From contig NZ_FOSQ01000012.1 in NCBI RefSeq assembly GCF_900114315.1, forward strand, positions 62,001-126,000: a DNA stretch of 64,000 bases, in the 5' to 3' direction. The notes under the pieces were generated by a model. It did not search any database, was not told where the DNA came from, and was given only the letters and a program-made list of their open reading frames with translations. The stretch is from Falsiroseomonas stagni DSM 19981. GTDB taxonomy: Bacteria > Pseudomonadota > Alphaproteobacteria > Acetobacterales > Acetobacteraceae. Both the position numbers and the translations under genes were made by a program. Of this stretch, positions 46,370 through 62,978 are shown one piece after another. The number at the start of each line of letters is the position of its first letter. Positions within the stretch are counted from its first letter, which is position 1.

Positions 46370-46382
46370 CTTCCCTCGGGAC

Positions 46383-46393
46383 TTGGATACATC
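46383..46393. promoter_or_regulatory. possible GntR half-site motif (GGATACA)
   Basis: TTGGATACATC lies 60 bases before the isochorismatase-like gene. Related strings TTGGGATACAAG (49438-49449) and TGGCATACATG (49494-49504) flank the divergent start of the amidohydrolase and GntR genes. The match is short. Confidence 0.25.
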
Positions 46394-46452
46394 TTGTGTG
46401 TCTGCAACCGATGATCTAGCGTCCGGGGCGAGGAACAACCGGACTGAGTCGC

Positions 46453-47145: not shown

Positions 47146-48530
47146 TGCGCTACGACCTGCTGCTGCGCGGCGGCAGCGCCGTGCTGCCGGGCCTCGGCCC
47201 CACCACCTGCGAAATCGCGGTGAAGGATGGGCGCATCGCAGCCATCCTCGCTCGTGGCGCTGCGGCGGAAGCGGCGGAGGTCTGGAACGTCTCCGGCCTG
47301 GTCGTGATGCCGGGCGCCATCGACGTGCATCTGCATCTCGGCCATGGCAAGGACATCAGCCGGCCGCGCGTGCCGGGCGATGCGGCGCAGGAAAGCGCGG
47401 CGGCCGCCGCCGGCGGCATCACCTGTTTCATCCCCTACCTCATGGCAACCGATCCCTTCGAGGATTTCTGGGACGAGGTCATCGCCGTCACGGAGGCGGG
47501 ATCGCGCATCGATTTCGGCTACCACCCCATCATCTCGACCGAGGCGCAGCTTGCGGGGCTGAAGCGCTATGTCGAGGAGTTCGGCGCGCCCAGCTTCAAG
47601 ATCTTCATGAACAACCGCGGCGGCGAGGGCAAGCGCCTCGGCCTGCCGGATATCGATGACGGCTTCCTGCTGCGGCTTTGCGAGACGGTCGCCGCGCATG
47701 GCGGGATGGTCTGCCCGCATCCCGAGACGATCGAACTCGCCTGGGTGCGCCGCAAGCAGATCATGGCGCAGGACCCCGAGGGCCAGGGCGGGCTCGCGAG
47801 CTGGAACGCATCCCGCCCCCCCTTCGTGGAGGCCGATGCCGTGCAGCGCGCGGCGCTGGTGGCGAAGGAAGCCGGCGCACCGCTCTATATCGTCCACACC
47901 TCCTCCGCCGAGGCGCTGGAGGCCGCGAAGCGGGGCCGCCAGGCCGGCGGCAAGGTCTGGGTGGAGACCTGCCCGCACTACCTCACCCATGACGTGACCT
48001 GGGAGGGCGGCGTGACGGGCAAGATCAACCCGCCGCTGCGCGAGGAAGCGGACCGGGAGGCGCTGTGGCGCGGGCTGTTCGATGGCAGCATCGATACCGT
48101 CGCCACCGACCATGTGCATCGCGACCTCTCGGGCAAGGAGGGCGGCATCTGGGCGGCCTCCCCGGGCTGCCCGGGGATGGAGACGATGCTGCCCGTGCTG
48201 CTCAGCGAAGGTCACATGAAGCGCGGGCTGAGCCTGGCGCGCATCGTGGAACTGGTTGCGACCAATCCGGCGAAGGCGATGGGCCTGCATCGCAAGGGCG
48301 CGATCGCGCCGGGCATGGATGCGGATTTCGCCATCGTCGATCCCGGCCGGCGCTGGACCGTCACGCGCGATGGCGTGCTCTCCTCCGCCGGCTATTCGAT
48401 CTATGAGGGCTGGACCCTGACGGGCCAGGTCGTCCACACCATCGTCCGGGGCCGCGCCGTCATGCGCGATGGCGCGCTGGACGACACGGCCGTGGGCAGC
48501 GGGCGCTACGTGCCGCGCTCACTCGTCTGA
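47145..48530 (+). CDS. dihydropyrimidinase / D-hydantoinase-family amidohydrolase
   Basis: A 461-residue cyclic amidohydrolase. Zinc ligands are visible: HLHLGH near residue 63, the carboxylated Lys in PSFKIFMN, His in CPHPETIE and IVHTSSAEAL, and Asp in VATDHVH. These place it with dihydropyrimidinases, hydantoinases and allantoinases, which open cyclic ureides to N-carbamoyl acids. The ATG at 47145 shares a base with the previous stop. Its end overlaps the converging amidohydrolase gene by 12 bases. With the isochorismatase-like amidase it makes a two-step ureide module. Confidence 0.92.
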   Translation: MRYDLLLRGGSAVLPGLGPTTCEIAVKDGRIAAILARGAAAEAAEVWNVSGLVVMPGAIDVHLHLGHGKDISRPRVPGDAAQESAAAAAGGITCFIPYLMATDPFEDFWDEVIAVTEAGSRIDFGYHPIISTEAQLAGLKRYVEEFGAPSFKIFMNNRGGEGKRLGLPDIDDGFLLRLCETVAAHGGMVCPHPETIELAWVRRKQIMAQDPEGQGGLASWNASRPPFVEADAVQRAALVAKEAGAPLYIVHTSSAEALEAAKRGRQAGGKVWVETCPHYLTHDVTWEGGVTGKINPPLREEADREALWRGLFDGSIDTVATDHVHRDLSGKEGGIWAASPGCPGMETMLPVLLSEGHMKRGLSLARIVELVATNPAKAMGLHRKGAIAPGMDADFAIVDPGRRWTVTRDGVLSSAGYSIYEGWTLTGQVVHTIVRGRAVMRDGALDDTAVGSGRYVPRSLV

Positions 48531-49400
48531 GAGAGGCATCTTCAACCCGTAGAGCCTGATCGCGTTGTCGCGGAGCACCTTGCGCTTCGCGACCTCGCGC
48601 AGGCCCAGCGCCTCGAACTCCACGCGCGCGCGCTCCAGGTCGATCACCGGATAGTCGGTGCCGAAGATCACCTTGTCCTGGCCGAAGCTGTTCATGTAGC
48701 GCACGAACTTCTCGTCCCAGTGCTTCGGCGCATAGGCGTCCGTGCCGATATAGACGTTGGGATGCTTGTAGGCGACAGCGATCATCTCCTCCGTCCACGG
48801 CCAGCCGATGTGGATGCCGACGAGCTTCAACTCCGGGAAGTCGCAGGCGATGGTGTCGAGCGTGATGGGGCGGCCGACGCTCTTCAGCGGACGCTCCTCG
48901 GAGTAGCGGAGGCAGTGGCCGATCTGCATCTGGATCGGGATGCCGAGTTCGCAGCACTTCGCATAGATCGGGTAGTAGCGCGCATGGTCGGGCGCCATCT
49001 CGAACCAATGGGGATAGAGATGCGCCCCGATGAAGCCGAGTTCCTTCACCGCATATTTCAGCTCGCGCAGTCCACGCATGCCTTCGGTCGGATCGACGCC
49101 GGCGAGGGCACTGAAACGCGTGGGATAACGGCGCACCATCTCCGCGACCTTCTCATACGGCACGCGACGATTGATGGTGTTGAGCGCGCTGCCGGCCTTG
49201 ATGGCGAGGAGGAAGCAATGCTCCACGCCGGCGCGGTCCATCTTCTCGATGAAGGCTTCCGGCGTCAGGCCCTTGATGCGGGATTCCTCGGCGCCGATCT
49301 TGCCGCGGATGAAGCTCTCCTGCCATCCCTTCCGCTCCAGCTCCGGATCGGCGAATTCGTAGTTGGTGACGGCATCGATGGCGGCGATGGAATAGGCCAT
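48519..49400 (-). CDS. amidohydrolase-2 family protein lacking the N-terminal HxH
   Basis: A 293-residue TIM barrel of the ACMSD/amidohydrolase-2 type. Conserved segments are GAHLYPHWF, IQMQIGHCLRY, LVGIHIGWPWTEE and VIFGTDYPV (the late Asp). The N-terminal metal motif, normally DxHxH, reads AIDAVTNYEF, so the first two metal ligands are missing. A paralogue with the same change lies at 56659-57558; both share DAYAPKHW. It could be a decarboxylase or hydrolase with altered metal site. It is divergent from the GntR gene and the ATG at 49400 is the first after an open upstream frame. Confidence 0.87.
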   Translation of the reverse strand: MAYSIAAIDAVTNYEFADPELERKGWQESFIRGKIGAEESRIKGLTPEAFIEKMDRAGVEHCFLLAIKAGSALNTINRRVPYEKVAEMVRRYPTRFSALAGVDPTEGMRGLRELKYAVKELGFIGAHLYPHWFEMAPDHARYYPIYAKCCELGIPIQMQIGHCLRYSEERPLKSVGRPITLDTIACDFPELKLVGIHIGWPWTEEMIAVAYKHPNVYIGTDAYAPKHWDEKFVRYMNSFGQDKVIFGTDYPVIDLERARVEFEALGLREVAKRKVLRDNAIRLYGLKMPLSDE

Positions 49401-49541: not shown

Positions 49542-50237
49542 ATGACACGGGGCAAGGGCGCTGGCGGAGAGGCACCGCGCAGCCTGCGCGAACAGGCCTA
49601 TGACGCCATCAAGCAGGGCATCCTGGACAGCCGCTACGCCCCCGGCGCGCTGCTGAGCGAGAACCAGCTGGCCGATGAACTGGCCATCAGCCGCACCCCG
49701 ATCCGGGAGGCGCTGCGGGAACTGGCCGGCGGCGGCCTGGTGCGCATCCTGCCCCAGCGCGGCATCATCGTCTCCGAACTCTCGGTGCAGGACATCGTGG
49801 AAGTCTATCAGTTGCGGGAGCAGCTGGAGGGCTTCGCCGTGCGCGTGGCGGCGGAACGCATGGGCCCCGCGGATGCGGAAGCGCTGCGGGCGGATCATCG
49901 GGAAGCGGTGTCCCACATGCAGGCGGGACGGCTGCGGGCGGCCTATGATTTCTCCGTGCTGATGCACAGCCGGATCATCGGGCTGGCGGGCAATTCGCGG
50001 CTGTCCCAATTCATGGGACAGCTCGGCGACCAGGTGCATCGCTTCGGCCTGCTGACCTTGCGGCATGGGCGCGTGGAGCGCGCGCTGCTGGAACACGGGC
50101 ACATCATCGATGCCCTCGTCGCCGGCAGGGCGGAGGAGGCGGAGCAGCTGATGCGCCTGCACCTGCGGGCGGATCGCGACGTGGCGCTGCGTGTCGTGCT
50201 GCCCGCCGGCGTGATGCAGCCCGAAGCCGCTTCCTGA
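49542..50237 (+). CDS. GntR-family regulator, FCD type
   Basis: A 231-residue regulator with a standard winged helix (LADELAISRTPIREALRELAGGG) and an FCD domain (HSRIIGLAGNSRL with ligand-type His, and HGHIIDALVAGRAEEAE). It sits alone on the plus strand inside an island of minus-strand genes and is divergent from the amidohydrolase. Its stop codon (50235-50237) directly abuts the stop of the converging hydrolase gene. It is the best candidate regulator for the whole island. Confidence 0.92.
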   Translation: MTRGKGAGGEAPRSLREQAYDAIKQGILDSRYAPGALLSENQLADELAISRTPIREALRELAGGGLVRILPQRGIIVSELSVQDIVEVYQLREQLEGFAVRVAAERMGPADAEALRADHREAVSHMQAGRLRAAYDFSVLMHSRIIGLAGNSRLSQFMGQLGDQVHRFGLLTLRHGRVERALLEHGHIIDALVAGRAEEAEQLMRLHLRADRDVALRVVLPAGVMQPEAAS

Positions 50238-51065
50238 TCAGCCGCGCTCGTAGAAGGCCTGGAAGGCGGCAATCGTCTCCGCGAAAGCCGTGGGGTTCCC
50301 GGTACCCTTCGTGACCAGCGGCTCCGCCTGCGGCATCAGTGAGCGCACGCGGTCGAAATACTCGAACAGCATGTCGCTGCGCGCGCAGGCCAGCAGCGTC
50401 GGCACCCCCACCAGCCTGAGGCGCGGTTCCTTGTCGTAGCCGATCGCGGCGTTGTAGCTGAGGTGATAGGTGCGGGCGGATTTCAGCACCTCCACCACCT
50501 TGTCGTGCAACTCCTCCGCCGATGGCAGGCCGAGCGGCCGGCGATGCGCGGCATCGCGCTTGTACCAGGGCCAGAACAGATAGGCGTCGCGCACGAAGTT
50601 CCAGATCCAGGACAGCTGCGATCCGTTCTGGTCCAGCGTCACGCCCGGCGCGTAATGCACCAGCATGTCGGCGCGCTCCTCCGGCGCGTAGAGCGAGACG
50701 CCATCCAGCACCAGGCGCCGCACGCGATGCGGCGCGGCGATGGCGATCTCCAACGCGATATTGGCGCCGGTATGGCTGCCATAGAGGTCGAAGCGGTCCA
50801 GTCCGAGCGCATCCAGCGCGCGCAGATGCGCATCGGCGAAATAGGCGATGGTGGTGTCCTTCGTGCCGGGCACGCAGGAATCGCCATTGCCGAGCGTGTC
50901 GCAGGCGATCACGCGCCGGTGCTGGCCGAAGGCGCCGATCAGCGGTTCCAGCAGCTTCGCCGATCCCGGCGAGGCATGCATCATCACCAGTGGAACGCCA
51001 CCCGTTCCCGCGGTGCGGAAATGCACCTGACCCTCGGCGATCTCGGTGAAGCCGCGGCGGATCAT
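50238..51065 (-). CDS. alpha/beta-hydrolase-fold protein with His in the nucleophile elbow
   Basis: A 275-residue alpha/beta hydrolase. The N-terminal strands (LVMMHASPGSAKLLEPL) and ACDTLGNGDS are normal, but the GxSxG elbow reads GSHTG, with His98 in the nucleophile position. The C-terminal catalytic His is also missing (KGTGNPTAFAETI). A shared cap motif GSQLSWIWNFVRD...FWPW links it to both halves of the 53484-55142 protein. It may be a non-hydrolytic member. It overlaps the TctC gene by 4 bases. Confidence 0.85.
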   Translation of the reverse strand: MIRRGFTEIAEGQVHFRTAGTGGVPLVMMHASPGSAKLLEPLIGAFGQHRRVIACDTLGNGDSCVPGTKDTTIAYFADAHLRALDALGLDRFDLYGSHTGANIALEIAIAAPHRVRRLVLDGVSLYAPEERADMLVHYAPGVTLDQNGSQLSWIWNFVRDAYLFWPWYKRDAAHRRPLGLPSAEELHDKVVEVLKSARTYHLSYNAAIGYDKEPRLRLVGVPTLLACARSDMLFEYFDRVRSLMPQAEPLVTKGTGNPTAFAETIAAFQAFYERG

Positions 51066-52033
51066 TCGGCGCGCAGCCCCGTGGCGCGCTGCAGCTCCTG
51101 CATGCGCTGGAGGTCGCCCGCGATCTTCTGGGCGAATTGCGCGGGGCTCGTGCCCTCGATCTCCAGCCCGGCCTCGATGAGGCGCGCGCTGACATCGGGG
51201 GCGCGCACAGCGGCCACGAATTCCGTGTGCAGGCGGTCGATGATGGGCTGAGGCGTGCCGGCCGGCATGTGGACGCCGTACCAGGAATTCATCTCCAGGC
51301 CCGGATAGGTTTCCGCCAGGGCCGGCACGTTGGGCAGGCGGCTGCTGCGGCCGAGCGTGGTGACGGCGAGCGGGCGGAGCATCCCCGACTGGATATGGCC
51401 CATCACCGCGCCGATGTTCCAGAAGCCCATATCGATGCGGCCCGCGAGCATGTCAGTGATGGGCTGCGTTGAACCCGTGTAGGGCACGTGCAGAAGGTTG
51501 ATGCCGGCGGCGCGCATGAACATCTCGCCAGCGAGATGCGTGGTGCTGGCCGGGCCGATGGAGCCGAAGTTCAGGCCAGGGTTGGACGCCCGCGCGACAT
51601 TCACGAGTTCGGCGACCGTGTTCGCCGCGATGCCGGGCCGCACGACGAAGACAAGGCCGGAGGAGACGAGTTGCGTGACCGGGATGAAGTCCCTGATGGG
51701 GTCATAGGGCACGGACCGGAAGGCGGGCGTGATGGCGTTGGGACCGGCCTGGGAGAAGAGCACGGTGTAGCCATCCGGCGCCGCGCGCGCGACGGAGGCG
51801 ACGGCCAGCGTGCCGCCCGCGCCCGGGCGCGTTTCCAGCACCACGGGCTGGCCGAGGGCCGCGGCCACCTTCTCGATGATCGGGCGCCCGATCAGGTCCG
51901 CAGGACCGCCGGGCGGCCAGGGGCTGATGAAGCGGATGGGGCGGTTCGGCCAGGCGCCCTGCGCCAAAGCGGGCGCCGCGGTGGTGGCGATGCTGGCGCC
52001 GAGCAGCAGGCGGCGCGTGATGGCCTGGGTCAT
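51062..52033 (-). CDS. Bug/TctC-family periplasmic binding protein
   Basis: A 323-residue TctC protein with a signal peptide (RRLLLGASIATTAAPALAQ). It has RPIRFISPWPPGGPADLIGR, RPGAGGTLAVASVARAAPDG and LHVPYTGSTQPITDMLAG. It lies in the minus-strand island between a hydrolase-fold gene and a CoA ligase, overlapping both by 4 bases. The window holds no tctA/tctB pair. Its presence beside an ABC importer in the same island suggests two related ligands or a sensing role (inference). Confidence 0.92.
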   Translation of the reverse strand: MTQAITRRLLLGASIATTAAPALAQGAWPNRPIRFISPWPPGGPADLIGRPIIEKVAAALGQPVVLETRPGAGGTLAVASVARAAPDGYTVLFSQAGPNAITPAFRSVPYDPIRDFIPVTQLVSSGLVFVVRPGIAANTVAELVNVARASNPGLNFGSIGPASTTHLAGEMFMRAAGINLLHVPYTGSTQPITDMLAGRIDMGFWNIGAVMGHIQSGMLRPLAVTTLGRSSRLPNVPALAETYPGLEMNSWYGVHMPAGTPQPIIDRLHTEFVAAVRAPDVSARLIEAGLEIEGTSPAQFAQKIAGDLQRMQELQRATGLRAE

Positions 52034-53484
52034 GATCGGGCTCCTGGATTCAGCAGTTTCAACAGTTCCGCCTTCACCACCTTGCCGCCGGCATTGCGCG
52101 GCAACTCGGGCAGGCGATGGATGATCGTGGGCACCTTGTAGGGGGCGAGGTTCGCACGGCAGTGGGCGCGCAGCGCATCGTCGGTGACGATGGCTTCGGC
52201 GACGATGAAGGCGGCAACCTCCTCCCCCAGCTCGCGCGACGGCGCGCCGGTGACGGCGGCGTCGGCGATGCCTGGCAGCTCGCGCAGCACACGCTCGATA
52301 TCCTGCGGGTAGATGTTCACGCCGCCGCGGATGATCATGTCCTTGGCGCGGCCGTGCAGATAGAGAAAGCCTTCCTCGTCGAGCCGCGCCAGGTCGCCCG
52401 GATAGAACCAGCCATCGCGGAAGGCGTCGCCATCCTCCGCGCGCCAGTAGCCGCGGGCTGAGGCGGGGCTGCGGTAGCGCAGGCGGCCGATCGTGCCGGG
52501 AGGTTGCGGCGCGTGGTGCTCATCCACGATCTCGACCTCCACCCGGAAGCCGGGGCGGCCGACGCTGTCGGGATGGCGGTCGCAGTCGTCGGGCGTGAGG
52601 ATGGAAACGCCGCCGCCCTCGGTCGAGGAATAGAACTCGAAGAGATTGGGCGTGAGTTGCGTGCGGATGGCGATGCGTTCTTCCGGATGCAGCGCGGAGC
52701 CGGAGGAGATGAGGATGCGCAGCGTCGGGAAGGCCAGCGTCGCCGGCTTCTCCTCCAGCAGGCGGCGGATCATGGTCGGCACGAGGAACAGCACCGTGCC
52801 GCCGATCTCCGCCAGATGCGCGGACAGCGCGCCGACCTTGGTGCGTGGTGACAGCACCGAAATCGTAGCCCCGGCGAAGAGCATCGCCAGGTTGAAGGCG
52901 CGGCCGCCGCCGAAATAGAGCGGCGTGACGGAGACATAAACGTCCTGCGCGTTCAGCCCCATGTTCAGCCAATAGACCATGAAGCGCGCCTCGAACTGCC
53001 GATGCGTCGCGCGCGGGCCCTTGGGCAGGCCGGTGGTGCCGGAGGACAGCGACAGCACCAGCGGGCTGTCATCGGTGATGACGGCGTCGTGCCAGGGCAT
53101 GTCGGAGGGCGTGATCCAGCCGGGCGAAAGGCCGTACCAGCCCGTGGCGGGCAGCGCCGGATCATCCGGCTCCAGCAAGACGATGTCGGGCTCGAAGGAT
53201 GCGGCGAAGCGGCGCTTCTCCTCCGTCTGCCAGCGGCAATCCATGGGCAGGATCACGGCGCCGAGCCGCGCCAGCGCGATCATCGCGATGACGTGTTCCG
53301 CATGGTCGGCCAGGCCGAGGCCCACCAGCATCTCCCGCCGCACGCCCAGCGCGTGCAGTGCGTGGCAGGCACCGTCGATCAGCCGGTCCAGCGTCGCGTA
53401 GTCGATGCGGCGGTCGCCATCGATGATGGCGGTCTTGTCCGGCCGCGTGCGCCGATGCAGCCGGAAGACGGCGTCGAAGGGCAT
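52030..53484 (-). CDS. AMP-dependent acyl-CoA synthetase/ligase
   Basis: A 484-residue adenylate-forming ligase. The P-loop reads LSSGTTGLPKGPRATH, the adenine motif FEFYSSTEGGG, and the hinge and ribose region WFYPGDLARLDEEGFLYLHGR. The catalytic lysine is in PRNAGGKVVKAEL. It probably activates a carboxylic acid made by the island for further CoA-linked breakdown. The ATG at 53484 shares a base with the stop of the tandem hydrolase gene. Confidence 0.92.
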   Translation of the reverse strand: MPFDAVFRLHRRTRPDKTAIIDGDRRIDYATLDRLIDGACHALHALGVRREMLVGLGLADHAEHVIAMIALARLGAVILPMDCRWQTEEKRRFAASFEPDIVLLEPDDPALPATGWYGLSPGWITPSDMPWHDAVITDDSPLVLSLSSGTTGLPKGPRATHRQFEARFMVYWLNMGLNAQDVYVSVTPLYFGGGRAFNLAMLFAGATISVLSPRTKVGALSAHLAEIGGTVLFLVPTMIRRLLEEKPATLAFPTLRILISSGSALHPEERIAIRTQLTPNLFEFYSSTEGGGVSILTPDDCDRHPDSVGRPGFRVEVEIVDEHHAPQPPGTIGRLRYRSPASARGYWRAEDGDAFRDGWFYPGDLARLDEEGFLYLHGRAKDMIIRGGVNIYPQDIERVLRELPGIADAAVTGAPSRELGEEVAAFIVAEAIVTDDALRAHCRANLAPYKVPTIIHRLPELPRNAGGKVVKAELLKLLNPGARS

Positions 53485-55142
53485 CAGTCGCGCATTGCCG
53501 CGCGGATGGCGGCGACGCGGTCGGCCAGCGTATCGCCGTGCCGGTGGATGGCGGCATCGGGGCGCATCGCGGCGGCGGCCGGCAGGCATTGCGCGAAGAG
53601 GTCGGATTCAGCCGAGAGCAGCGCGACGCGATGCGGCAGCGCGGCCAGGCGTTCCAGCAGCGGCCAGGCGATGGCAGCGCGCCAGGCGGGGGCGAAGCTG
53701 CGCGGGTTCTTGGCCTGCTCGCGGATCTCCACCTGCAGCCGCTCCGGCTCCAGCCGCGGTTCCGCCTTCCGCGCATTCACCAGGCGCCGGTCCCACCACG
53801 GGAACCACAGCCCCATGTCGCGGCGCATGTGCCACATCTTCAGCAGGTGCGATCCATCCCAGCTTGGCGTCACATCCGGCGCCCAGCGATCCGCCCATTC
53901 CGCGCGCAGCCGCGCGGGCAGCGCGATGGGCGCGTCGAGCAGCACGGACAGCGCACGATCGGGCCGCGCGGCCGCGGCGGCGACCACGGTGGCGGCGCCG
54001 CTGTTGTGGCCGAGCAGATGCGCCTGCTTGACGCCCAGCGCATCGCAGACCTGCCAGAGCGTCGTCGCCCAGGCTTCCGGCGACTGCACCGCGCCCGCAT
54101 CACTCTCCCCATGGCCCAGCGGATCGAAGCTGATCGCGGGGATGTCGAGGGCGCGGAGCAAATCCTCATACAGGGCCGAGGATCCCGGTACATGCGGCGC
54201 GATCACCAGCGGGGGCGCCGCATGGATGTCGCCCATCACGCGCACCAGCACCTGGTCATCGCCGATGGTCAGGTAGTTCGTCGTGCTGCGGCCCGCGATC
54301 GGCGTCGCCATGGGCGGCGCGGGCGGTTCGGCGCGGGACGGATGACGCAGCAGGATCTGGCGTTCCACCGCGGCGGCGGCGAGGGGATCGCGCGGCATCT
54401 CCTCCTGCCACGCCTCGGCGGGATATTGCGCCATGGTGCGGTGCTGGCTGTCGCCGGGGCGGTTGCCGAAGCAGACGGGCACGCGGAGTTCCGGCAGCAC
54501 CTCAAGCCCCCGATGCCGGAAGGCGGCGCTGTAGCCGATGCGGTAGCCATCCCCGGCTTCCAGCAATTCCAGCACGCCGCGATGGTTGAATTCCGTGTCG
54601 GGCGCGTCGGTGTCGGCGCGGAAGGCGAGGGTCTGGTTGTGCCAGGGCCAGAACACATGCTGGTCGCGGTAGCGGTACCAGAGCCAGACCAGGTGGCTGC
54701 CGTCCCAGGACGGCACGATGGGCAGCAGGTATTTCGTCAGCCTTTCCTGCGCCGCCTTCACGGAGAAGACGGGAAATCCGTCCGTCAGCGCCATGGAACA
54801 GCGATCGGGATGGCGCCGCGCGTATTCGACAGCGATGGAGGCGCCGGTGTGGCGGCCATAGGTGGCGGCCTGCTCCACGCCCATCACGCTCAAGGCCTCG
54901 GCGAGGCCATCGGCGAAATCCTCGATCTCCGGCTGGTCGAGCGGCAGCAGGTCGGAAAGGCCGAAGCCGGGCGTATCGAAGGCGAAGGCGGTGAAGGCGC
55001 CGGCGAAGACCTCCTGCGGTTCGCGCAGCACCTTGGCGGAACAGGGGGAGGCGTGCAGCAGGCAGACCGCGGGGCCGGCGCCGGCACGGGTGTAGTGCAC
55101 GCGCCTGTTGCCGACGCTGACGAAATGCTTCGTGACCTTCAT
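53484..55142 (-). CDS. fused tandem alpha/beta-hydrolase protein with non-canonical nucleophiles
   Basis: A 552-residue protein built of two alpha/beta-hydrolase domains (about 1-277 and 278-552). Domain 1 starts KHFVSVGNRRVHYTRAGAGP and has the elbow GRHTG with His98 at the nucleophile position, exactly as in the 50238-51065 protein. Domain 2 begins at Met278 and reads GHNSG, with Asn380 there. Both carry the shared cap motif SWDGSHL...W...R...F(W)PW. Domain 2 plus Met278 is 275 residues, the length of the single-domain relative, as if two genes had fused. No ribosome site precedes Met278, so separate translation is unlikely. Confidence 0.85.
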   Translation of the reverse strand: MKVTKHFVSVGNRRVHYTRAGAGPAVCLLHASPCSAKVLREPQEVFAGAFTAFAFDTPGFGLSDLLPLDQPEIEDFADGLAEALSVMGVEQAATYGRHTGASIAVEYARRHPDRCSMALTDGFPVFSVKAAQERLTKYLLPIVPSWDGSHLVWLWYRYRDQHVFWPWHNQTLAFRADTDAPDTEFNHRGVLELLEAGDGYRIGYSAAFRHRGLEVLPELRVPVCFGNRPGDSQHRTMAQYPAEAWQEEMPRDPLAAAAVERQILLRHPSRAEPPAPPMATPIAGRSTTNYLTIGDDQVLVRVMGDIHAAPPLVIAPHVPGSSALYEDLLRALDIPAISFDPLGHGESDAGAVQSPEAWATTLWQVCDALGVKQAHLLGHNSGAATVVAAAAARPDRALSVLLDAPIALPARLRAEWADRWAPDVTPSWDGSHLLKMWHMRRDMGLWFPWWDRRLVNARKAEPRLEPERLQVEIREQAKNPRSFAPAWRAAIAWPLLERLAALPHRVALLSAESDLFAQCLPAAAAMRPDAAIHRHGDTLADRVAAIRAAMRD

Positions 55143-56662
55143 GGCCTGTCGCCCCCCTGCAGCGCACCTGGATTCATGCGGCCCTCCGGATCGAGCATCG
55201 CCTTCACCTGGCGCAGCAGTGCCGCGCCTTCCGGCAGCATCCGGTCCGCCAGCGCGTAGTAGCGGCCGATCTGCGCATGCACCGCGCCATGCGCATCCAT
55301 CACGGCGCCCAACGCCTTGCGCGCATCGCGGATCACGTCGCGCGCGGCTGCATTGGCCGGGAAGGCGCCGAAGCGGGCGCGGTTCTTCTCCGTCAGGTGC
55401 TTCATGTGCAGCGGGTCCAGCGCATCGCGCCAGTAGAACATCGGCTCGATCGTCACATAGGCGCCGAGCGAGGAGATGATGTGGCTGACGCTGATGCCGT
55501 GCTCGGCCAGCGGCAGCGTCGCCAGGCGGGTTTCCAGGGCGTGCAGGCAGGCCCGGGCGGTGCCGAGGGGCAGCATGCCGTGCACGGGCACCCAGCGCTC
55601 CCCCTCCGGCCCCACGAAGCCGCGGATGGAATAGGGGCGGGCGCGCAGCGCGCGGGGGATGGCGGCCTCCGTCTCCCGCCCGCCGGCGGCCTGGGCGATG
55701 GCGCGCGCGGCGGTGATGCCGGCCTCGGCGGCGGGGGAAGACACGCCCTCGGCGGTCAGGTGCAGCGTCCAGGCGGGGTCGGCAAGCTTCGCGCGCGCCA
55801 GGCCCGCGACATCGCGCATGGCCTGCATGACGGAACCCGCCCGGGCGGCGACGGCGGCGGCGGTGCGCAGCGCCTCCCCGGCCTCGACCTTCGTGGCGGA
55901 TTTCCCGCGCACGGGGTCCATGGCCAGCGCGCGGGCGACCAAGCCCTTCTGCGCGATCGCCACCAGCGCGCCCATCATCGCGCCGCCATCCTCGAAGGCG
56001 AAGGAGGCGAAGGCGGCTTCGCGTTCCGGCGCCAGGCGCAGCGCGATTTCCGTCTTCACGCCGAAGGCGCCGCAATCGCCCAGGAACAGGCCCGTGAGGT
56101 CGGGCCCCATGTTGCGCCAGAAGCGCGGCTCGCCCCGCATCGCCAGCGCGCCGGTGCGCGCCACGCTGCCATCGGCCAGCACGACGGACAGGCCGATGAT
56201 GCCGTCCATGCTGCCCGGTAAATTCTGCGCGGCGACGCCGCCGACCGTGCTGGCCGCGCCGGAGATGGGTGAGGCCTGGGCGGAGCGCAGGCCATGCGGC
56301 GCCAGCGCCTCCGCCAGCGCCTGCCAAGTGGTGCCCGCGCCCACGATGGCGGTGAGGTTGGCGGCATCGATGCGGATGGCATCGAGGCGCGTCGTATCCA
56401 CCACCACGGCGGGCAGCGTGGGCACGACGCCGGCGGTGTAGGAAAGCCCCGCGCCGCGCGGCACCACCGGCGCGCCGTGCTGCGCGACGAGGCGCAGCGC
56501 GGCGGCACATTCCGCCGTGCTGCCCGGCCGGATCACCAGCAGCGCGGGCGCGGCGCCGGGCCATTCGAACAGGTCGGCCGCGGCCAGCGCGCGGGCGGCC
56601 TCATCGGTCGCGACATGCGCCTCGCCCAGCAGGCCGCGCAGCGATGCCGCGAGGTCGCTCAT
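55139..56662 (-). CDS. FAD-binding oxidase/dehydrogenase (VAO/GlcD family)
   Basis: A 507-residue flavoprotein of the VAO type. The FAD domain (FAD_binding_4) shows PVVPRGAGLSYTAG, TAIVGAGTTWQALAEAL and ISGAASTVGGVAAQN. The C-terminal half matches FAD-oxidase C, ending QVKAMLDPEGRMNPGAL. Members oxidise 2-hydroxy acids, aryl alcohols or lactate-like compounds. The ATG at 56662 overlaps the amidohydrolase stop by 4 bases. Its role is probably oxidation of a hydroxy acid arising in this island (inference). Confidence 0.9.
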   Translation of the reverse strand: MSDLAASLRGLLGEAHVATDEAARALAAADLFEWPGAAPALLVIRPGSTAECAAALRLVAQHGAPVVPRGAGLSYTAGVVPTLPAVVVDTTRLDAIRIDAANLTAIVGAGTTWQALAEALAPHGLRSAQASPISGAASTVGGVAAQNLPGSMDGIIGLSVVLADGSVARTGALAMRGEPRFWRNMGPDLTGLFLGDCGAFGVKTEIALRLAPEREAAFASFAFEDGGAMMGALVAIAQKGLVARALAMDPVRGKSATKVEAGEALRTAAAVAARAGSVMQAMRDVAGLARAKLADPAWTLHLTAEGVSSPAAEAGITAARAIAQAAGGRETEAAIPRALRARPYSIRGFVGPEGERWVPVHGMLPLGTARACLHALETRLATLPLAEHGISVSHIISSLGAYVTIEPMFYWRDALDPLHMKHLTEKNRARFGAFPANAAARDVIRDARKALGAVMDAHGAVHAQIGRYYALADRMLPEGAALLRQVKAMLDPEGRMNPGALQGGDRP

Positions 56663-57558
56663 GCCGGCTTGTCGGTCAGCTTGAAGATGTTGATCGCGTT
56701 GTTGCGCAGGATCTTCTTCAGCGGGTCGGGACGGAAGTTGAGGTCGTGCATCTCGTTCATCGCACGCTCCGGGTCGATCACCGCCCAATCCGTGCCGAAC
56801 AGGAATTTGTCCTGGCCATAGGTGTTGGCGTAGTGCACGGCCTGCTGCGGCCAGTGCTTCGGCGCATAGGCATCGCCGGCCATGTAGACGTTCGGATGCT
56901 TGGTGCAGCAGGAGATCATCTCATCCGTCCAGGGATAGCCGAGATGGATGCCGATGATGGTGAGTTCGGGGAAATGGATCGCGACCTTGTCGAGCGTCAT
57001 CGGCCGGCCGACGGTCGGCAGGCGGCGGTCCTGTTGGTAGACCAGGCAATGGCCGACCTGCATCATGATCGGCACTTCGAGTTCCGCACAGCGGGCGTAG
57101 TAGGGGTAGTAGATCGCGCTGTCCGGCGCCTCCCCGAACCAATGCGGATAAAGGTGCCCGCCGACGAAGCCGTATTCCTTGATGGCGACGTCGAGTTCCT
57201 TCAGCCCCTTGATGCCGCGCGTGGGATCGATGCCCGCCAGGCCGCTGAACCGGTCCGGATACTTCGCGCAGATGTCGCGCACCCATTCATAGGGAATCTC
57301 GATGGAGCCCTTCACGCGCAGATCACCGCAGCGCACGGCGATCAGGAAGGAACGCTCGATCCCCGCGGCATCCATCTTGCGCAGGTAGTCCTCGATCGAG
57401 ACGCCGCGGCGATCCTCCGCCTTGGTGCGGACCTGTTCGCGGAAGCGGCCATCGGTGGGGATGCGGCCTTCGGCGAAGGCTTCGGGGGTGAAGACATTCA
57501 CCACGATGTCGATGGCGCCATAGCCCGTGCGGGTGGCGGCGGGGTTGAAGACGGTCAT
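56659..57558 (-). CDS. amidohydrolase-2 family protein lacking the N-terminal HxH (paralogue)
   Basis: A 299-residue paralogue of the protein at 48519-49400. It keeps GGHLYPHWF, MMQVGHCLVY, IIGIHLGYPWTDE, DAYAPKHW and FLFGTDWAV. The start again lacks HxH (AIDIVVNVFTPEAF). The shared loss argues for a distinct subfamily rather than random decay. It lies next to the FAD oxidase and the ABC ATPase genes in a run of 4-base overlaps. It may act on a related substrate, or the two may form a heteromer. Confidence 0.87.
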   Translation of the reverse strand: MTVFNPAATRTGYGAIDIVVNVFTPEAFAEGRIPTDGRFREQVRTKAEDRRGVSIEDYLRKMDAAGIERSFLIAVRCGDLRVKGSIEIPYEWVRDICAKYPDRFSGLAGIDPTRGIKGLKELDVAIKEYGFVGGHLYPHWFGEAPDSAIYYPYYARCAELEVPIMMQVGHCLVYQQDRRLPTVGRPMTLDKVAIHFPELTIIGIHLGYPWTDEMISCCTKHPNVYMAGDAYAPKHWPQQAVHYANTYGQDKFLFGTDWAVIDPERAMNEMHDLNFRPDPLKKILRNNAINIFKLTDKPA

Positions 57559-58523
57559 GCGCGTTCCTCGACAGGATCAAGAATATTGGTGCCATCGGCG
57601 ATGCGGAGGCAGGAAGCCGAGTGCCCCCCATCCAGGATCACCGGGGATGGCGGGGCGCTGGTGCAGGCGGGCAGCACCAGCGGGCAGCGGCCGGCGAAGA
57701 AGCAGCCGGGTGGCAGGTTGATGGGCGAGGGTATCTCCCCCACCACCTCATGCCGCCGCAGTTTCACGGCGGGGTCGGGCGGCAGGTGGGCCGACAGCAG
57801 CGTCTGCGTGTAGGGATGCGCAGGCGTGTCGAACAACCGCCCCGCCGGCCCCTGTTCCGCGATGCGGCCGAGATAGAGCACGATGACGCGGTGGGAGACG
57901 AGGCGCACCGTTTCCAGATCGTGGCTGATGAACAGCATCGCGATCCCCGTCTCCCGCTGCAACTCATCCAGCAATTGCAGGATGCCGGCGCGGACGGAGA
58001 GGTCGAGCGAGGAGGTCGGTTCATCCAGCACCACCAGCTTCGGCCGGTTGGCGATGGCGCGGGCGATGGAGACGCGCTGCAACTGCCCGCCCGACAATTC
58101 ATGCGGGTAGCGCTGCAGGGACGCCACGGGCAGGCGCACGCGGTCGGCCAGGCGGCGTGCCTCCGCGATGCGCGCGGCGCCATCCAGCGTGGTGTGCAGC
58201 GCCAGCGGTTCCTCCAACAGGCGGCCGATGGTCATGCGGGGATTCAGCGATCCCCAGGGGTCCTGGAAGACGATCTGCAACCGCGCCCGCAGCGGCCGCA
58301 GCGCGGCGGGCGACAGGCGGGTGATGTCCTCGCCCTCGAACATGATCGTGCCGCCGGTGGGCGCGAGCAACCGCGTCACCAGCAATCCGATCGTCGATTT
58401 GCCGGAGCCGGATTCGCCCACCAGGCCCAGCGTCTCCCCCGCCGCGATGGAGAAGGACACGCCATTGACCGCATTCACCCCCCCGGGGAAGCGATGCACG
58501 AGGTTCTGGACATCGAGGATCAT
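57555..58523 (-). CDS. ABC transporter ATPase, DppF/OppF-like
   Basis: A 322-residue ATPase. Walker A is GESGSGKST, the Q-loop is FQDPWGSLNP, the signature is LSGGQLQRVSIARA, Walker B is LVVLDEPTSSLD and the switch is FISHDLE. A C-terminal Cys-containing extension (FFAGRCPLVLPAC) is the mark of oligopeptide-type ATPases and may hold an iron-sulfur cluster. It pairs with the following DppD-like ATPase, overlapping it by 4 bases. Confidence 0.94.
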   Translation of the reverse strand: MILDVQNLVHRFPGGVNAVNGVSFSIAAGETLGLVGESGSGKSTIGLLVTRLLAPTGGTIMFEGEDITRLSPAALRPLRARLQIVFQDPWGSLNPRMTIGRLLEEPLALHTTLDGAARIAEARRLADRVRLPVASLQRYPHELSGGQLQRVSIARAIANRPKLVVLDEPTSSLDLSVRAGILQLLDELQRETGIAMLFISHDLETVRLVSHRVIVLYLGRIAEQGPAGRLFDTPAHPYTQTLLSAHLPPDPAVKLRRHEVVGEIPSPINLPPGCFFAGRCPLVLPACTSAPPSPVILDGGHSASCLRIADGTNILDPVEERA

Positions 58524-59497
58524 GCGGCCCGCTCCGCGTAGTGGCAGGCGGCGCCATGCGAATCATCCAGCGCCACGCGCGGCGGGGGCGCCAGGCAGGC
58601 GGTGGTCGCGCGCGGGCAGCGGTCCCGATAGAGGCAGCCATCGGGCAAGGCGTAGAGGTCGGGCGGCGTGCCGCCGGTGACGGTGTAGCCGATCCGCGCG
58701 ATGCGGCCCGGCGTGCTGGCGATCAGCGCCTGGGTGTAGGGATGGGCGGGACGCGCGAAGACCTCCGCGACAGGTCCATCCTCCACGATGCGGCCGGCGA
58801 ACATCACCGCCACGCGCTGGCAGTAATGCGCCACCACGCCGAGGTCATGCGTGATGACGAGGGCGCCGAGATTCCGCGCCAGCACCAGGTCCCGCAGCGT
58901 GTCCAGCACCTGCGCCTGCACCGTGACATCGAGGCCCGTGGTCGGTTCATCCGCGATCACCAGCGCGGGTTCGTTGATCAGCGCCATCGCGATCAGCACG
59001 CGCTGCGCCATGCCGCCGGACAGCTCATGCGGCCAGGCCTGCATCCGGCGCTTGGGATCGGGGATGCGCACGGCGGCAAGCATCGCCTCCGCCCTCTCCC
59101 GCGCCGCCGCACCGCTCGCCGTGCCATGCACGCGCTGCATCCGCACCAGTTGGTCGCCGACACGCTTCAGGGGATCGAGCGAGGTGAGCGGCGACTGCAC
59201 CACCATCGCCATCCGCCTCCCCCGGATTTTCTCCAATTGGCGGTCGGACATGGCGAGGATATCGCCGCCTTCGAAGCGGATGCCGCCCTGCGGGATGCGG
59301 GCGGGGGCGCGCAGCAGACCCATGGCGGCCAGCGCAGTCAGCGACTTGCCGGCGCCGGTCTCACCGACCAGGCCGACAATCTCCCCGGCATCGACGGTGA
59401 AGGAGACGCCGTTCAGCGCCCGCGCGACACGCACGCGGTTGTCGAGGCCGCGCGCAGCGAACTCCACATGCAGGTCCTGGACGTCGAGCAGCCTCAT
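58520..59497 (-). CDS. ABC transporter ATPase, DppD/OppD-like
   Basis: A 325-residue ATPase. Walker A is GETGAGKSL, the signature is LSGGMAQRVLIAMAL, Walker B is ALVIADEPTTGLD and the switch is ITHDLG. It has a C-terminal CLYRDRCPRATTACL Cys motif like its partner. The ATG at 59497 overlaps the permease stop by 4 bases. The signature's GMAQR in place of GMRQR is a modest variation. Confidence 0.94.
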   Translation of the reverse strand: MRLLDVQDLHVEFAARGLDNRVRVARALNGVSFTVDAGEIVGLVGETGAGKSLTALAAMGLLRAPARIPQGGIRFEGGDILAMSDRQLEKIRGRRMAMVVQSPLTSLDPLKRVGDQLVRMQRVHGTASGAAARERAEAMLAAVRIPDPKRRMQAWPHELSGGMAQRVLIAMALINEPALVIADEPTTGLDVTVQAQVLDTLRDLVLARNLGALVITHDLGVVAHYCQRVAVMFAGRIVEDGPVAEVFARPAHPYTQALIASTPGRIARIGYTVTGGTPPDLYALPDGCLYRDRCPRATTACLAPPPRVALDDSHGAACHYAERAA

Positions 59498-60354
59498 TTG
59501 CCCGTGGCCCGGCGCTTGGGGTCGAGAAGGTCGGACAATCCATCGCCCGTCAGGTTCAGGCCGAGCACCAGGGCGATCAGCGCCAGCCCCGGGAAGAGCG
59601 CGACCCACCATTCGCCGGAGATCACATATTCCGCGCCCTGCCGGATCATCGCGCCCCATTCGGGCGCCGGCGCCTGCACGCCGATGCCGATGAAGGCGAG
59701 CGTCGCCGAAATCCGCACCGCCCAGGCCATGCGCAGCGGCAATTGCGCGGTGGCGCCGAGGATGGCGTTGGGCAGGATATGCACCAGCAGCACGCGCCAT
59801 TCCGGATTGCCCGCGGCGACGGCGGCGCGCACGAAGGTGGCGTTGCGCAGCGCCAGCACCTCCGCCCGCACGATGCGGGCGAAGATCGGACTGTCCAGGA
59901 AGCCCACCACCAGGATGACATTGAGGAACCCCTGGCCGGTGGCGGCGACGATGGCCAGCGCCAGGATGATGGTGGGGAAGGCGCGCAGCACGTCCAGCAC
60001 GCGCAGCAGCACCTCATCCACCCATCCCCCGCGCCAGCCCGCGATGAGGCCGAGCGGGATGCCGACCACCGCCATGATGGCGCCGGCGGGCAGCGCGATG
60101 CCGAAGGCGTAGCGCGCGCCGTGGATGACGCGGGACAGCACATCCATGCCGTTGCCATCGGTGCCGAGGATGAAGGCGCCGGTGCCGGGCGGGCGCAGCG
60201 TGTCATAGGGATGCGACAGCGTGGGCGGCAGCGGCGCGATCACATCGGCGAAGGCCGCGAGGAAGGCGAAGACCATGATCACGCCGAAGCCGACCGCGAA
60301 GGTCGGGCTGCGGCGCGCGGTGCCGATGACGCGGTCGAGCGTGGTGGTGCTCAT
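59494..60354 (-). CDS. ABC transporter permease, DppC-like
   Basis: A 286-residue permease with the DppC periplasmic segment (FILGTDGNGMDVLSRVIHGA), the EAA loop TFVRAAVAAGNPEWRVLLVH and the end GDGLSDLLDPKRRATGK. It has six hydrophobic segments. The ATG overlaps the DppB-like stop, and its own stop overlaps the ATPase start. Confidence 0.93.
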   Translation of the reverse strand: MSTTTLDRVIGTARRSPTFAVGFGVIMVFAFLAAFADVIAPLPPTLSHPYDTLRPPGTGAFILGTDGNGMDVLSRVIHGARYAFGIALPAGAIMAVVGIPLGLIAGWRGGWVDEVLLRVLDVLRAFPTIILALAIVAATGQGFLNVILVVGFLDSPIFARIVRAEVLALRNATFVRAAVAAGNPEWRVLLVHILPNAILGATAQLPLRMAWAVRISATLAFIGIGVQAPAPEWGAMIRQGAEYVISGEWWVALFPGLALIALVLGLNLTGDGLSDLLDPKRRATGK

Positions 60355-61376
60355 GACCGCGCCCGCGGCTCCAGCAGCATCACCGTCAGATCCACCAGCG
60401 CGAAGATGATGACGGAGGCGATGGCGAGCGTCAGCACATAGCCCTGCACCGCCGCGAAATCGCCAAGCAGGATGGCGTTCAGCCCCCAATGGCCGAGCCC
60501 GCCCCAGGAGAAGACGAATTCGATCAGGCTCGCCGCCGCCAGCAGGGAGGTGAATTCGGAACCGACGAAGGTGATGACCGGGACGAGGGCGGCGCGCAGC
60601 GCGATGCGACGGATGACGCGGCGCGGGAAGCCGCAGGCACGGGCGTAGCGGATGTAGTCGCTGCCCATCACCTCGATCGCGATGGCGCGGGTGTGCTTGA
60701 CGATGGGCGCGGTGGCGACGATGGCGAAGCAGCCGACGGGCAGCACCAGTTGCGAGGCCGCCGACCAGGCGGCCTCTACGTTCCCGGCCAGGATGCTGTC
60801 GATCAGGACGGAGCCCGTCACCACGGGCGGCGGCGTCACCATCATGGAGACGCGCCCCATCGGCGCCGGCGCCCAGCCCAGCAGGTAGAAGAAGATGAAA
60901 ATCGCCATCAGGCCGAGCCAGTAGGTCGGCAGGGAGAAGCCGAACAGCGATCCGAAGCGCGACGCCTGGTCGAACCACCCGTTCGGGCGTTCGGCGGCAT
61001 GAAGGCCGAGCGGCACGCCGACCAGCGCGCCGATGCCGACCGCCAGCGTCACCAGTTCCAGCGTGGCGGGCAGCAGGGTCGCAATCTCATGCGTCACCTT
61101 CGCATTGCCCTGCCAGGACATGCCCAGATCGCCCTGCACCAGGCGGCCGAGATAGGCCCAGAACTGCGTCAGCAAGGGCTGGTCCAGCATGAGCTCCGCG
61201 CGGATGCGCGCCAGCATCGGCGCATCCGCCATCGGCCCCGCCAGCATCGCCACCGGATCCTGGTCCCCGATGCGGACCAGCATGAAGGTGAGGAACAGGA
61301 TGCCGAGCAGGACCGGCACCGCGACCAGCAGGCGCCGCAGCAGGAAGCGCCCGATGGTCGGCAACGCCAGGCTCAC
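60351..61376 (-). CDS. ABC transporter permease, DppB-like
   Basis: A 341-residue permease starting with LLRRLLVAVPVLLGILFLTF. It has a WLGLMAIFIFFYLLGWAP segment and an EAA loop YIRYARACGFPRRVIRRIAL. It is slightly longer than the 13050 homologue because of a periplasmic insertion. It is followed by the DppC-like gene with overlap and preceded by the binding-protein gene (4-base overlap), giving a complete importer. Confidence 0.93.
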   Translation of the reverse strand: MSLALPTIGRFLLRRLLVAVPVLLGILFLTFMLVRIGDQDPVAMLAGPMADAPMLARIRAELMLDQPLLTQFWAYLGRLVQGDLGMSWQGNAKVTHEIATLLPATLELVTLAVGIGALVGVPLGLHAAERPNGWFDQASRFGSLFGFSLPTYWLGLMAIFIFFYLLGWAPAPMGRVSMMVTPPPVVTGSVLIDSILAGNVEAAWSAASQLVLPVGCFAIVATAPIVKHTRAIAIEVMGSDYIRYARACGFPRRVIRRIALRAALVPVITFVGSEFTSLLAAASLIEFVFSWGGLGHWGLNAILLGDFAAVQGYVLTLAIASVIIFALVDLTVMLLEPRARS

Positions 61377-62944
61377 CGGCGGCAGGCCAGGTCCTTCCAG
61401 ACCAGGCGGTTATGCGGACGCCACATGAAGCCTTCCATGCAGGTGGCGAAGACCTCATGCGTGCCGGGCAGGAAGGTCTCGACGAAGGTGGCGCTTTCCG
61501 CCTGGCTGCGCTGCGCGCGCGCGACGAGGTCGAGCCACTTCGCGTCATCACGCTCGATGACCGAGGCATCGATCAGCCCATCGAGTTCCGCGTTGTTGTT
61601 GCCGTTCACGTTGGAGCCACCGCGGGAATGGGCGGTGAGGAACATGTTGTAGGAGGGATCGGGCACGAAGGATGACGTCAGATGCGTCATGAAGGGCAGC
61701 GACCAGACATTGACCGCGCGGCGCGCGGTGATCTCGGTCGCGGGGATGCGGCGCGGCGTCACGCGGATGCCGGCGCGGGCCAGGCTCGCCTGCATCTGCA
61801 ACGCGAGAGGCTCCTCCCACCACCAGTTGGTGCTGTATTCCAGCGTGATGTCGAGGCCGTTGGGATGCCCCGCTTCCGCCAGCAGGGCGCGGGCGCGGTC
61901 GTAATCGGTCTCATAAGTATAGGCATCGATGGCGCCGGGGATCGGCGGGTTCAGCATGGAACGGCTGCGCGTGCCGATGCCGAGGAACACGGCCTCCCCG
62001 ATCGCGCGGTAGTCGGTGGCGTAGGCCACGGCCTGGCGGACGCGCACATCGGTGAAGGGCGCGATGCGCGGGTTCATGCGGACGGTGGCGCTGCCCGGCG
62101 CGGCCACGCTTTCGACGCGCACGTTGCGATCGCGGCGGAGATCCGCGATCTGCTGCAGGGGAAGCTGTTCGGCATATTGCACCTGGCCGGTGCGGACCAG
62201 CGCCACGCGCGTCGCCGGCGACGGCACTTCCCGCCACACGATGCGGCTGTAGAAGGGGCGCTCGAACTGGTAGCCGCGGTTCAGGACGAAGACCGCCTGC
62301 TGGCCGGCCGTCACGCTTTCCACGTGATAGGGGCCGAAGCCCGCGGTGTTGGAACCCAGCCAGCGCGCGGCGAAGGGGTCTTCCGGCGTCGCATGGCGCT
62401 TCGCCTCCGTGCTGTCGAACAGCGCCGGGATGTGCAGCGTCAGCACGCTGAGGAAGATGCGGTTCGCTTCCTTCAGGCGGAAGCGGACCTCGAAGCGGGA
62501 GATCTCCTCCACACTCTCGATCAGCGCGACGTTGCGGATGAAGAGGCCCGTGCGGCGCTGGGCGTTCGACTTCTCGAAGGTCCAGACGACATCGGCGGCG
62601 GTGAGCTCATTCCCGAAATGGCTGCGCATGCCGGGACGGATGCGGAAGACGTATTCCTTCCCATCCTCCGACACCGTCCAGGATTCCGCGAGATGCGACT
62701 CCACCCGGCCGGGATCGACCTCCGTCCGGCCATTCGCGCCGGGGCGCGTGGCGAAGCGGGTCAGGCCCTCATAGACATTGACCGAGGCCTCGATCTGGCC
62801 GGGCACCCAGATATCCGGGTCGAAGCCGCGGGGGGTGGAGACCATTGCCATGACCATGGTGCGGTCCTGCGCCGTGGCGGGCATGACGCCCAGCAGCGCG
62901 GCAAGCGCGGCGGTGGCGACCAGCAGGCGGCGGGGACTTGGCAT
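61373..62944 (-). CDS. ABC transporter solute-binding protein (SBP family 5)
   Basis: A 523-residue periplasmic binding protein with a signal peptide (RRLLVATAALAALLGVMPATAQ). It has the family-5 pattern: RGFDPDIWVPGQ near the mature start, LAESWTVSEDGKEYVFRIRPG, FGPYHVESVTAG and YATDYRAIGEAVF. The ATG at 62944 begins the signal peptide; an in-frame TTG at 62977 lacks a ribosome site. It is the first gene of the ABC part of the island and likely defines what the pathway degrades, but the ligand cannot be read off. Confidence 0.92.
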   Translation of the reverse strand: MPSPRRLLVATAALAALLGVMPATAQDRTMVMAMVSTPRGFDPDIWVPGQIEASVNVYEGLTRFATRPGANGRTEVDPGRVESHLAESWTVSEDGKEYVFRIRPGMRSHFGNELTAADVVWTFEKSNAQRRTGLFIRNVALIESVEEISRFEVRFRLKEANRIFLSVLTLHIPALFDSTEAKRHATPEDPFAARWLGSNTAGFGPYHVESVTAGQQAVFVLNRGYQFERPFYSRIVWREVPSPATRVALVRTGQVQYAEQLPLQQIADLRRDRNVRVESVAAPGSATVRMNPRIAPFTDVRVRQAVAYATDYRAIGEAVFLGIGTRSRSMLNPPIPGAIDAYTYETDYDRARALLAEAGHPNGLDITLEYSTNWWWEEPLALQMQASLARAGIRVTPRRIPATEITARRAVNVWSLPFMTHLTSSFVPDPSYNMFLTAHSRGGSNVNGNNNAELDGLIDASVIERDDAKWLDLVARAQRSQAESATFVETFLPGTHEVFATCMEGFMWRPHNRLVWKDLACRR

Positions 62945-62964
62945 GGGTGTTCTCGCCCGTCTCG

Positions 62965-62978
62965 GTTGTTCGGACAAC
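62965..62978. promoter_or_regulatory. short palindrome before the island ABC operon
   Basis: GTTGT-TCGG-ACAAC lies 21-34 bases upstream of the binding-protein start. It shares TTGTTCGGA with the palindrome before the IclR gene at 26360. It may be an operator or chance. Confidence 0.3.

Follow-up and report, generated by a model that had tools for sequence, protein, structure and literature searches.

Histidine at the nucleophile elbow of alpha/beta-hydrolase-fold proteins encoded in one operon of Falsiroseomonas stagni

ABH1, ABH2 and their elbows

We analysed a 64,000-nucleotide stretch of Falsiroseomonas stagni DSM 19981 (contig NZ_FOSQ01000012.1, positions 62,001 to 126,000; hereafter the window, from a genome of 6.38 Mb, our G000), in which two reverse-strand genes, ABH1 and ABH2, encode three related alpha/beta-hydrolase-fold domains with His or Asn at the nucleophile elbow. 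The nearest loci found, with 94–95% identity in ABH1, belong to Roseomonas ponticola, Falsiroseomonas algicola and one Acetobacteraceae metagenome-assembled genome. Both open reading frames (ORFs) are intact, and the two genes are laid out as follows (positions of the window):

50238..51065, reverse strand: ABH1, single-domain alpha/beta-hydrolase-fold protein, 275 residues, elbow GSHTG; codons of His98 (50772-50774), Asp121 (50703-50705) and Asp231 (50373-50375), reverse strand
53484..55142, reverse strand: ABH2, two-domain protein, 552 residues
54327..55142, reverse strand: domain 1 of ABH2, residues 1-272 of 552, elbow GRHTG, His98 codon 54849-54851
53484..54302, reverse strand: domain 2 of ABH2, residues 281-552, elbow GHNSG, Asn380 codon 54003-54005

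The elbows read YGSHTG (ABH1, His98), YGRHTG (ABH2, His98) and LGHNSG (ABH2, Asn380), exactly as a first-pass annotation made from the sequence had reported, and a cap motif is present in all three domains (GSQLSWIWNFVRDAYLFWPW, GSHLVWLWYRYRDQHVFWPW and GSHLLKMWHMRRDMGLWFPW). That annotation took the shared motif as a sign of common descent. When ABH1 was searched against its own genome, domain 1 of ABH2 was recovered at E 2.5e-31 and domain 2 at E 7.4e-19, against E 3.7e-12 for the best Ser-elbow protein, so the kinship of the three domains goes beyond chance. The search returned 17 matches. Four have a His or Asn elbow, all at E <= 7.4e-19 (ABH1 itself, the two domains of ABH2 and a paralogue on contig 16); the other 13 have E >= 3.7e-12, and the 12 elbows that could be read among them are Ser (10) or Asp (2), a match on contig 38 being left unread. 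The contig 16 paralogue, a fourth His-elbow domain of this genome (L002, ~1462-2300), has the elbow GAHLG, is ~40% identical to ABH1 and adjoins a TctC gene and a FAD_binding_2 protein. The protein encoded at 17686-18534 is an ordinary Ser/Asp/His hydrolase and serves, as had been suggested, as the contrast case within the window.

AlphaFold models of ABH1 and ABH2 are confident alpha/beta-hydrolase folds in which His98 occupies the elbow, between strand 92-97 and helix 99-110, while Asp121 ends strand 115-121. In sequence alignments, His98 falls on the nucleophile of solved structures, namely the Ser of GVSMG (8v16/6eb3) and the Asp of GHDRG (3qyj). Both checks, the modelling of the 552-residue protein and the alignment to known structures, had been proposed with the first-pass annotation. 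By their eight-stranded fold with a cap and their match to the Abhydrolase_1 profile, the proteins belong to the alpha/beta-hydrolase superfamily. ABH1 and domain 1 of ABH2 retain an acid after beta7 (or beta6), as canonical hydrolases do, and have no Ser, Cys or Asp at the elbow, which places them outside the canonical hydrolases. The elbow Asp nucleophile of haloalkane and fluoroacetate dehalogenases is likewise absent; the database name 'Haloacetate dehalogenase H-1' carried by one relative is doubtful because its elbow is not Asp.

A 2024 survey of the fold states in its section 2.7 that the elbow residue is always Ser, with Asp, Cys and Ser-less elbows given as variants, and that the catalytic His comes from the beta8-alphaF loop; it also records that triad-less families exist (PMC11878206). 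Searching solved structures by sequence, we found no close relative of ABH1 or ABH2, and a structure search recovered the general fold only, with many tied rows that are uninformative on chemistry. The nearest solved folds are 3-oxoadipate enol-lactonase (2xua), haloperoxidase-type esterases (1a8s/1zoi), the C-C hydrolase DxnB2 (4lxg/4lyd) and fluoroacetate dehalogenase (3r3u). From the nearest solved Abhydrolase_1 folds, with which they share 14–23% identity, the His-elbow proteins differ by the elbow His, by an Asp at the end of beta6 and by having no conserved His at the late position. None of the NCBIfam families of the fold came near its curated cut-off (best 54 bits against 390 for ABH1 and 73.3 against 307 for ABH2). 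Searches of the open-access literature, with subscription papers outside their scope, showed no case of a His elbow in this fold among the titles listed. We regard the His-elbow proteins as a novel variant of the active site within an established fold.

Conservation and a rearranged signature

We aligned ABH1 with 120 listed of its 1510 database relatives and ABH2 with 120 listed of 515 relatives (E <= 1e-10, among the candidates scored), which gave 121 rows each. His98 is invariant in both alignments (121/121), as is Asp231 in ABH1 and in domain 1 of ABH2 (121/121 each). Asp121, at the end of beta6, is present in 121/121 ABH1 rows, so that all of these share the elbow His and both Asp residues; in domain 1 the signature is H/D/D in 112 of the 121 rows, H/N/D in eight and H/A/D in one. 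The column of the late His is occupied by Asn257 in ABH1 and by His in 1/121 relatives, with at most 9/121 in adjacent columns, in line with the earlier remark that the single-domain protein lacks this residue. Domain 1 of ABH2 also has no conserved late His (the top His column of the segment, 254, reaches 15/121), and in domain 2 the top column of the late segment reaches 18/121. The elbow of domain 2 is variable (Asn 103, Gln 10, Gly 5, Ala 2 and Lys 1 of 121). ABH1 and domain 1 of ABH2 fit a proposed H-D-D His-elbow group, defined by the elbow His, an Asp at beta6 and another at beta7 and the lack of a late His; domain 2, with its Asn, does not.

The two-domain arrangement is conserved, since all 120 listed relatives of ABH2 span 523–577 residues; the head-to-tail fusion read from the window is thus real. 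The two-domain gene was found in 6/299 genomes sampled in the order and, among 398 sampled in the phylum, in the window's own genome only (E <= 1e-60), so a broad spread of this gene is not borne out by these samples. Database relatives of ABH2 are also named from Burkholderiales.

Conservation was also read from genome loci of ABH1 relatives, taken as the best 80 of 182 confirmed, a set that is biased because the elbow His is itself part of one of the two patterns used for the search. The elbow is His at 79 of them and Gln at one, and the elbow/beta6/beta7 pattern is H/D/D at 75, H/E/D at two, H/N/D at one and H/D/gap at one. In the Gln case (L071:1822-2664), an ABH1 relative, the elbow reads GQQTG and the beta7 position is not Asp.

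Ratios of nonsynonymous to synonymous substitution rates (dN/dS, NG86 method) against three close orthologues (L009, L010 and L020) are 0.087–0.098 for ABH1, 0.073–0.107 for domain 1 of ABH2 and 0.135–0.169 for domain 2. The neighbouring genes (described below) gave 0.139–0.170 (ligase), 0.145–0.146 (flavin adenine dinucleotide (FAD) oxidase), 0.028–0.043 (AH2a) and 0.032–0.055 (AH2b). NG86 values climb with distance, to 0.15–0.29 for ABH1 at 71–74% identity and 0.18–0.65 for the ABH2 domains at 41–84%, and reach ~0.7–1.1 between paralogues 28–35% identical, where counts are saturated. ABH1 and ABH2 are under purifying selection. Decay or sequencing error was considered and is ruled out by the intact ORFs, the wide conservation and the low ratios against close orthologues; selected function rather than decay was what the first-pass annotation had expected. 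The GSHTG/GRHTG proteins form a large conserved bacterial group that is apparently undescribed.

An independent search with a protein of elbow GYHTG as query yielded 1068 relatives at E <= 1e-10, of which 120 were listed. Like ABH1 and ABH2, with which it groups apart from the Ser/Asp controls, this family has an elbow His and a beta7 Asp (each 120/120); it differs in keeping the late His (120/120) and in never having Asp at the beta6 position among the relatives listed (0/120; Ile 97, Val 22, Asn 1). Members include L077:5785-6624, L083:3101-3997, L087:7093-7944 and L099:6701-7528, and a GYHTG protein lies near a GSHTG one in 7/80 loci. His-elbow proteins are therefore, as judged from aligned residues, of two architectures, because the GYHTG family keeps the late His without the beta6 Asp and the GSHTG/GRHTG proteins show the reverse.

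The signature was then read at the elbow, at the end of beta6, after beta7 and at the late His in the 56 rows of a tree. The late His is present, and beta6 Asp or Glu absent, in 11/11 control rows with a Ser or Asp elbow. The beta6 Asp is found in 29 of the 36 His-elbow rows, 27 of which have no His in the late segment. Of the remaining seven, four keep the late His, one has a His displaced by three columns (L099:11836), one has no late His (P0206 domain 1, with Asn at beta6) and one has no aligned end. On this reading of the alignment, the telling pattern goes beyond the lost Ser, the missing late His being coupled to a beta6 Asp.

A branch with support 100/98 separates the 45 rows whose elbow is His, Asn, Gln or Ala from the 11 rows in which it is Ser or Asp. 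Three changes are required on the tree to explain the His label, two of them forced by the starred branches. His may have arisen once and then been lost in domain 2 (Asn/Gln) and in two Ala rows, or it may have arisen more than once; the internal branching is uncertain (92/70), the root was placed only for display, and sampling started from His-elbow proteins. The tree suggests a common origin of the elbow His.

The operon and its recurrence

The remaining features around ABH1 and ABH2 are:

48519..49400, reverse strand: AH2a, Amidohydro_2 protein, IDAVTN at the expected HxH position; outside the ABH1-AH2b run
49542..50237, forward strand: putative GntR-type regulator, convergent with ABH1 (label by sequence reading, no Pfam run)
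51062..52033, reverse strand: TctC-type periplasmic binding protein, overlapping both ABH1 and the ligase by ATGA
52030..53484, reverse strand: adenosine monophosphate (AMP)-dependent acid (coenzyme A, CoA) ligase; TGATG overlap with ABH2
55139..56662, reverse strand: FAD_binding_4 (GlcD-like) oxidase/dehydrogenase; ATGA overlap with ABH2
56659..57558, reverse strand: AH2b, Amidohydro_2 protein, IDIVVN at the expected HxH position
57555..62977, reverse strand: oligopeptide-type ATP-binding cassette (ABC) uptake system with two ATPases, two permeases and an SBP_bac_5-like binding protein, upstream in the same run (gene labels by reading; only its junction with AH2b checked base by base)

ATGA or TGATG overlaps join ABH1, TctC, the AMP ligase, ABH2, the FAD oxidase, AH2b and the first ABC ATPase into one translationally coupled run, so that the genes do lie in one operon, as had been assumed. 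On the forward strand, a divergent run at 45509-48530 encodes a xylose-isomerase-like TIM barrel, an isochorismatase-family hydrolase and an Amidohydro_1 (hydantoinase-like) protein; homologues of the latter two recur near ABH1 relatives in 11/80 and 8/80 loci, respectively. A ~215-residue protein lacking any Pfam match (L073:8837-9484) follows directly downstream of ABH1 relatives, and its cluster is found in 7/80 loci.

The metal-dependent Amidohydro_2 enzymes carry an N-terminal HxH metal motif. AH2a and AH2b are Amidohydro_2 proteins by Pfam and lack this motif: D-x-x-x-N stands at the expected place, with Asp in 35/35 and Asn in 34/35 aligned rows, alongside His197 (35/35) and Asp249 (34/35). 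The solved structure closest to them is 3irs, of the uncharacterised protein BB4693 (E 8.1e-28). One operon thus joins two superfamilies that have lost textbook catalytic residues, since the elbow of the ABH proteins and the HxH of the AH2 proteins are both replaced and the substitutes are conserved.

To describe the neighbourhood, the 80 loci were split at 57% identity, a cut-off set once the data had been inspected, and many of their contigs are short. Of the 36 loci at or above it, 28 have TctC, 25 the AMP ligase, 24 amidohydrolase-2 and 24 acyl-CoA dehydrogenase; the corresponding counts in the other 44 are 1, 4, 2 and 5. In the 299 genomes of the order, ABH1 occurs in nine (E <= 1e-40) and the amidohydrolase in 15 (E <= 1e-50), with both in eight (Fisher p 3.9e-11, kinship ignored). 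AH2b-type and FAD oxidase genes lie near ABH2 in 5/6 order genomes that have ABH2, G248 giving no amidohydrolase match, and every AH2b-type place of the order sample (6/6; G000, G088, G118, G143, G189 and G233) has a His-elbow protein and the FAD oxidase within ~17 kb. All five other ABH2 loci fetched adjoin a peptide-type ABC transporter. AH2a-type places have a His-elbow protein in the stretch examined in 2/14 cases (the window and G287); in G197 the two genes are on separate short contigs, and in G181, G224 and G289 the His-elbow protein is encoded elsewhere in the genome. The expectation that GxHTG proteins stand beside amidohydrolase-2 genes holds in that such neighbours occur, but a strict partnership is not borne out by the AH2a-type places. 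We conclude that the pairing is an association and no strict rule.

Possible chemistry and its alternatives

ABH1 and ABH2 probably perform a reaction other than that of ordinary hydrolases in the breakdown of small acids. We propose, with somewhat less than even confidence, that ABH1 and domain 1 of ABH2 would be cofactor-free enzymes carrying their catalytic His on the elbow instead of the beta8 loop and using it in non-hydrolytic base catalysis, a reading drawn from alignments and models. His98, held and polarised by Asp121 and/or Asp231, would act as a general base and deprotonate a carboxylate- or CoA-bearing substrate; the step that follows would be non-hydrolytic and free of an acyl-enzyme (C-C cleavage, elimination or isomerisation). 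Since no second conserved base stands at the usual place for activating water, a lyase or isomerase step appears likelier than acyl-enzyme hydrolysis; the first-pass annotation had offered lyase, cofactor-free oxygenase-like or carrier roles as possibilities. We know of no elbow His in the hydroxynitrile lyases of this fold. They offer a precedent for lyase chemistry but are listed as triad enzymes (PMC3444685). For HOD it is reported that a His-Asp pair alone is the base and that the elbow Ser is dispensable (PMC10548524), and the end of beta6 is described as running parallel to the elbow (PMC7034887); Asp121 would therefore be well placed as partner of the elbow His. Domain 2 of ABH2 is possibly secondary and non-catalytic, probably a supporting domain that has lost activity partly or wholly.

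Judging from the genes for uptake, acid ligation and flavin oxidation, the substrate would be an organic acid, perhaps in the form of a CoA thioester; a precursor containing nitrogen is hinted at by the Amidohydro_1 and isochorismatase genes of the opposite strand. The route would comprise uptake (ABC or TctC), acid activation (AMP ligase), flavin oxidation (FAD oxidase or acyl-CoA dehydrogenase) and the HxH-less amidohydrolase-2.

Several observations weigh against base catalysis by an elbow His with a beta6 partner. The elbow His may fail to reach Asp231 directly, and the beta6 Asp is dispensable in domain 1 because Asn (8/121) or Ala (1/121) can replace it. A late-place His accompanies the beta6 Asp in one ABH1 relative of 121 and in 2/29 tree rows (L038 and P0148 domain 1). 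The amidohydrolase is often found without a nearby His-elbow protein, and 12/14 AH2a-type places have no alpha/beta hydrolase in the stretch examined, as far as a few tblastn queries could show.

It is conceivable, if rather unlikely, that the proteins are not enzymes and bind a pathway intermediate or partner (as carrier, chaperone or sensor), their conserved residues forming a binding pocket. The elbow without Ser, Cys or Asp, the variable elbow of domain 2 and the existence of triad-less families in the fold (PMC11878206) would suit this; yet the elbow His of ABH1 and domain 1 is invariant while its partners change in coordination, and binding pockets rarely require exact triad positions, an objection that does not cover domain 2. 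We consider it distinctly improbable that His98 is itself a nucleophile, attacking an ester, thioester or phosphoanhydride to form an acyl- or phospho-imidazole in a hydrolase or transferase. Its alignment with the nucleophile of solved relatives agrees with such a role, for which the second His of the GYHTG family could act as base, but ABH1 and domain 1 have no second conserved His at the usual place for activating water, and searches of the open-access literature showed no nucleophilic His of this fold among the titles listed.

Slightly less probable again is a cofactor-free oxygenase like HOD/QDO, in which a (hetero)aromatic substrate, deprotonated by His and Asp, would react with O2 at the oxyanion hole. 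HOD shares the proposed His-Asp general base without a nucleophile, and its acid D126 lies 25 residues after S101 (PMC10548524), close to the 23 between His98 and Asp121; the Amidohydro_1 and isochorismatase genes would suit a nitrogen ring. Against this, HOD keeps Ser (or Ala) at its elbow and has its His on the beta8 loop (PMC10548524), whereas neither ABH1 nor domain 1 has a conserved late His to form such a pair, and the ligase, acyl-CoA dehydrogenase and TctC neighbours suit an aliphatic or CoA-linked acid too. Only a slender chance goes to an ordinary hydrolase with a displaced nucleophile: Thr99 and Cys227 of ABH1 are both conserved in 121/121 rows, but in the GAHLG paralogue of the same genome the His is followed by Leu, and remoter relatives and domain 1 have another residue in place of Cys227. 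As for pseudogenes or decaying copies, which the absence of textbook catalytic residues might bring to mind, the intact ORFs, their occurrence in many species and dN/dS of 0.07–0.17, like those of the adjoining ligase and oxidase, make them a negligible prospect.

Taken as a whole, and more tentatively than the proposed base catalysis itself, the data would fit a new architecture in which the catalytic His has moved from the beta8 loop to the elbow, the old His has been lost and the beta6-end Asp has become its partner, with the GYHTG family as a possible intermediate. The enzymes would be base-catalysed lyases or isomerases acting in one pathway with an HxH-less amidohydrolase-fold enzyme, and the tandem protein a pseudo-heterodimer of one active and one retired domain.

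A large natural group thus departs from the survey's statements on the elbow Ser and the beta8-loop His, in a heavily studied fold, and a GYHTG sister family that resembles an intermediate makes the relocation of an active site directly testable. The labels 'pimeloyl-ACP methyl ester carboxylesterase' and 'haloacetate dehalogenase' on relatives are suggested to be misnomers. The findings also indicate that Roseomonas-like and Burkholderiales bacteria may use a catabolic route that has yet to be characterised.

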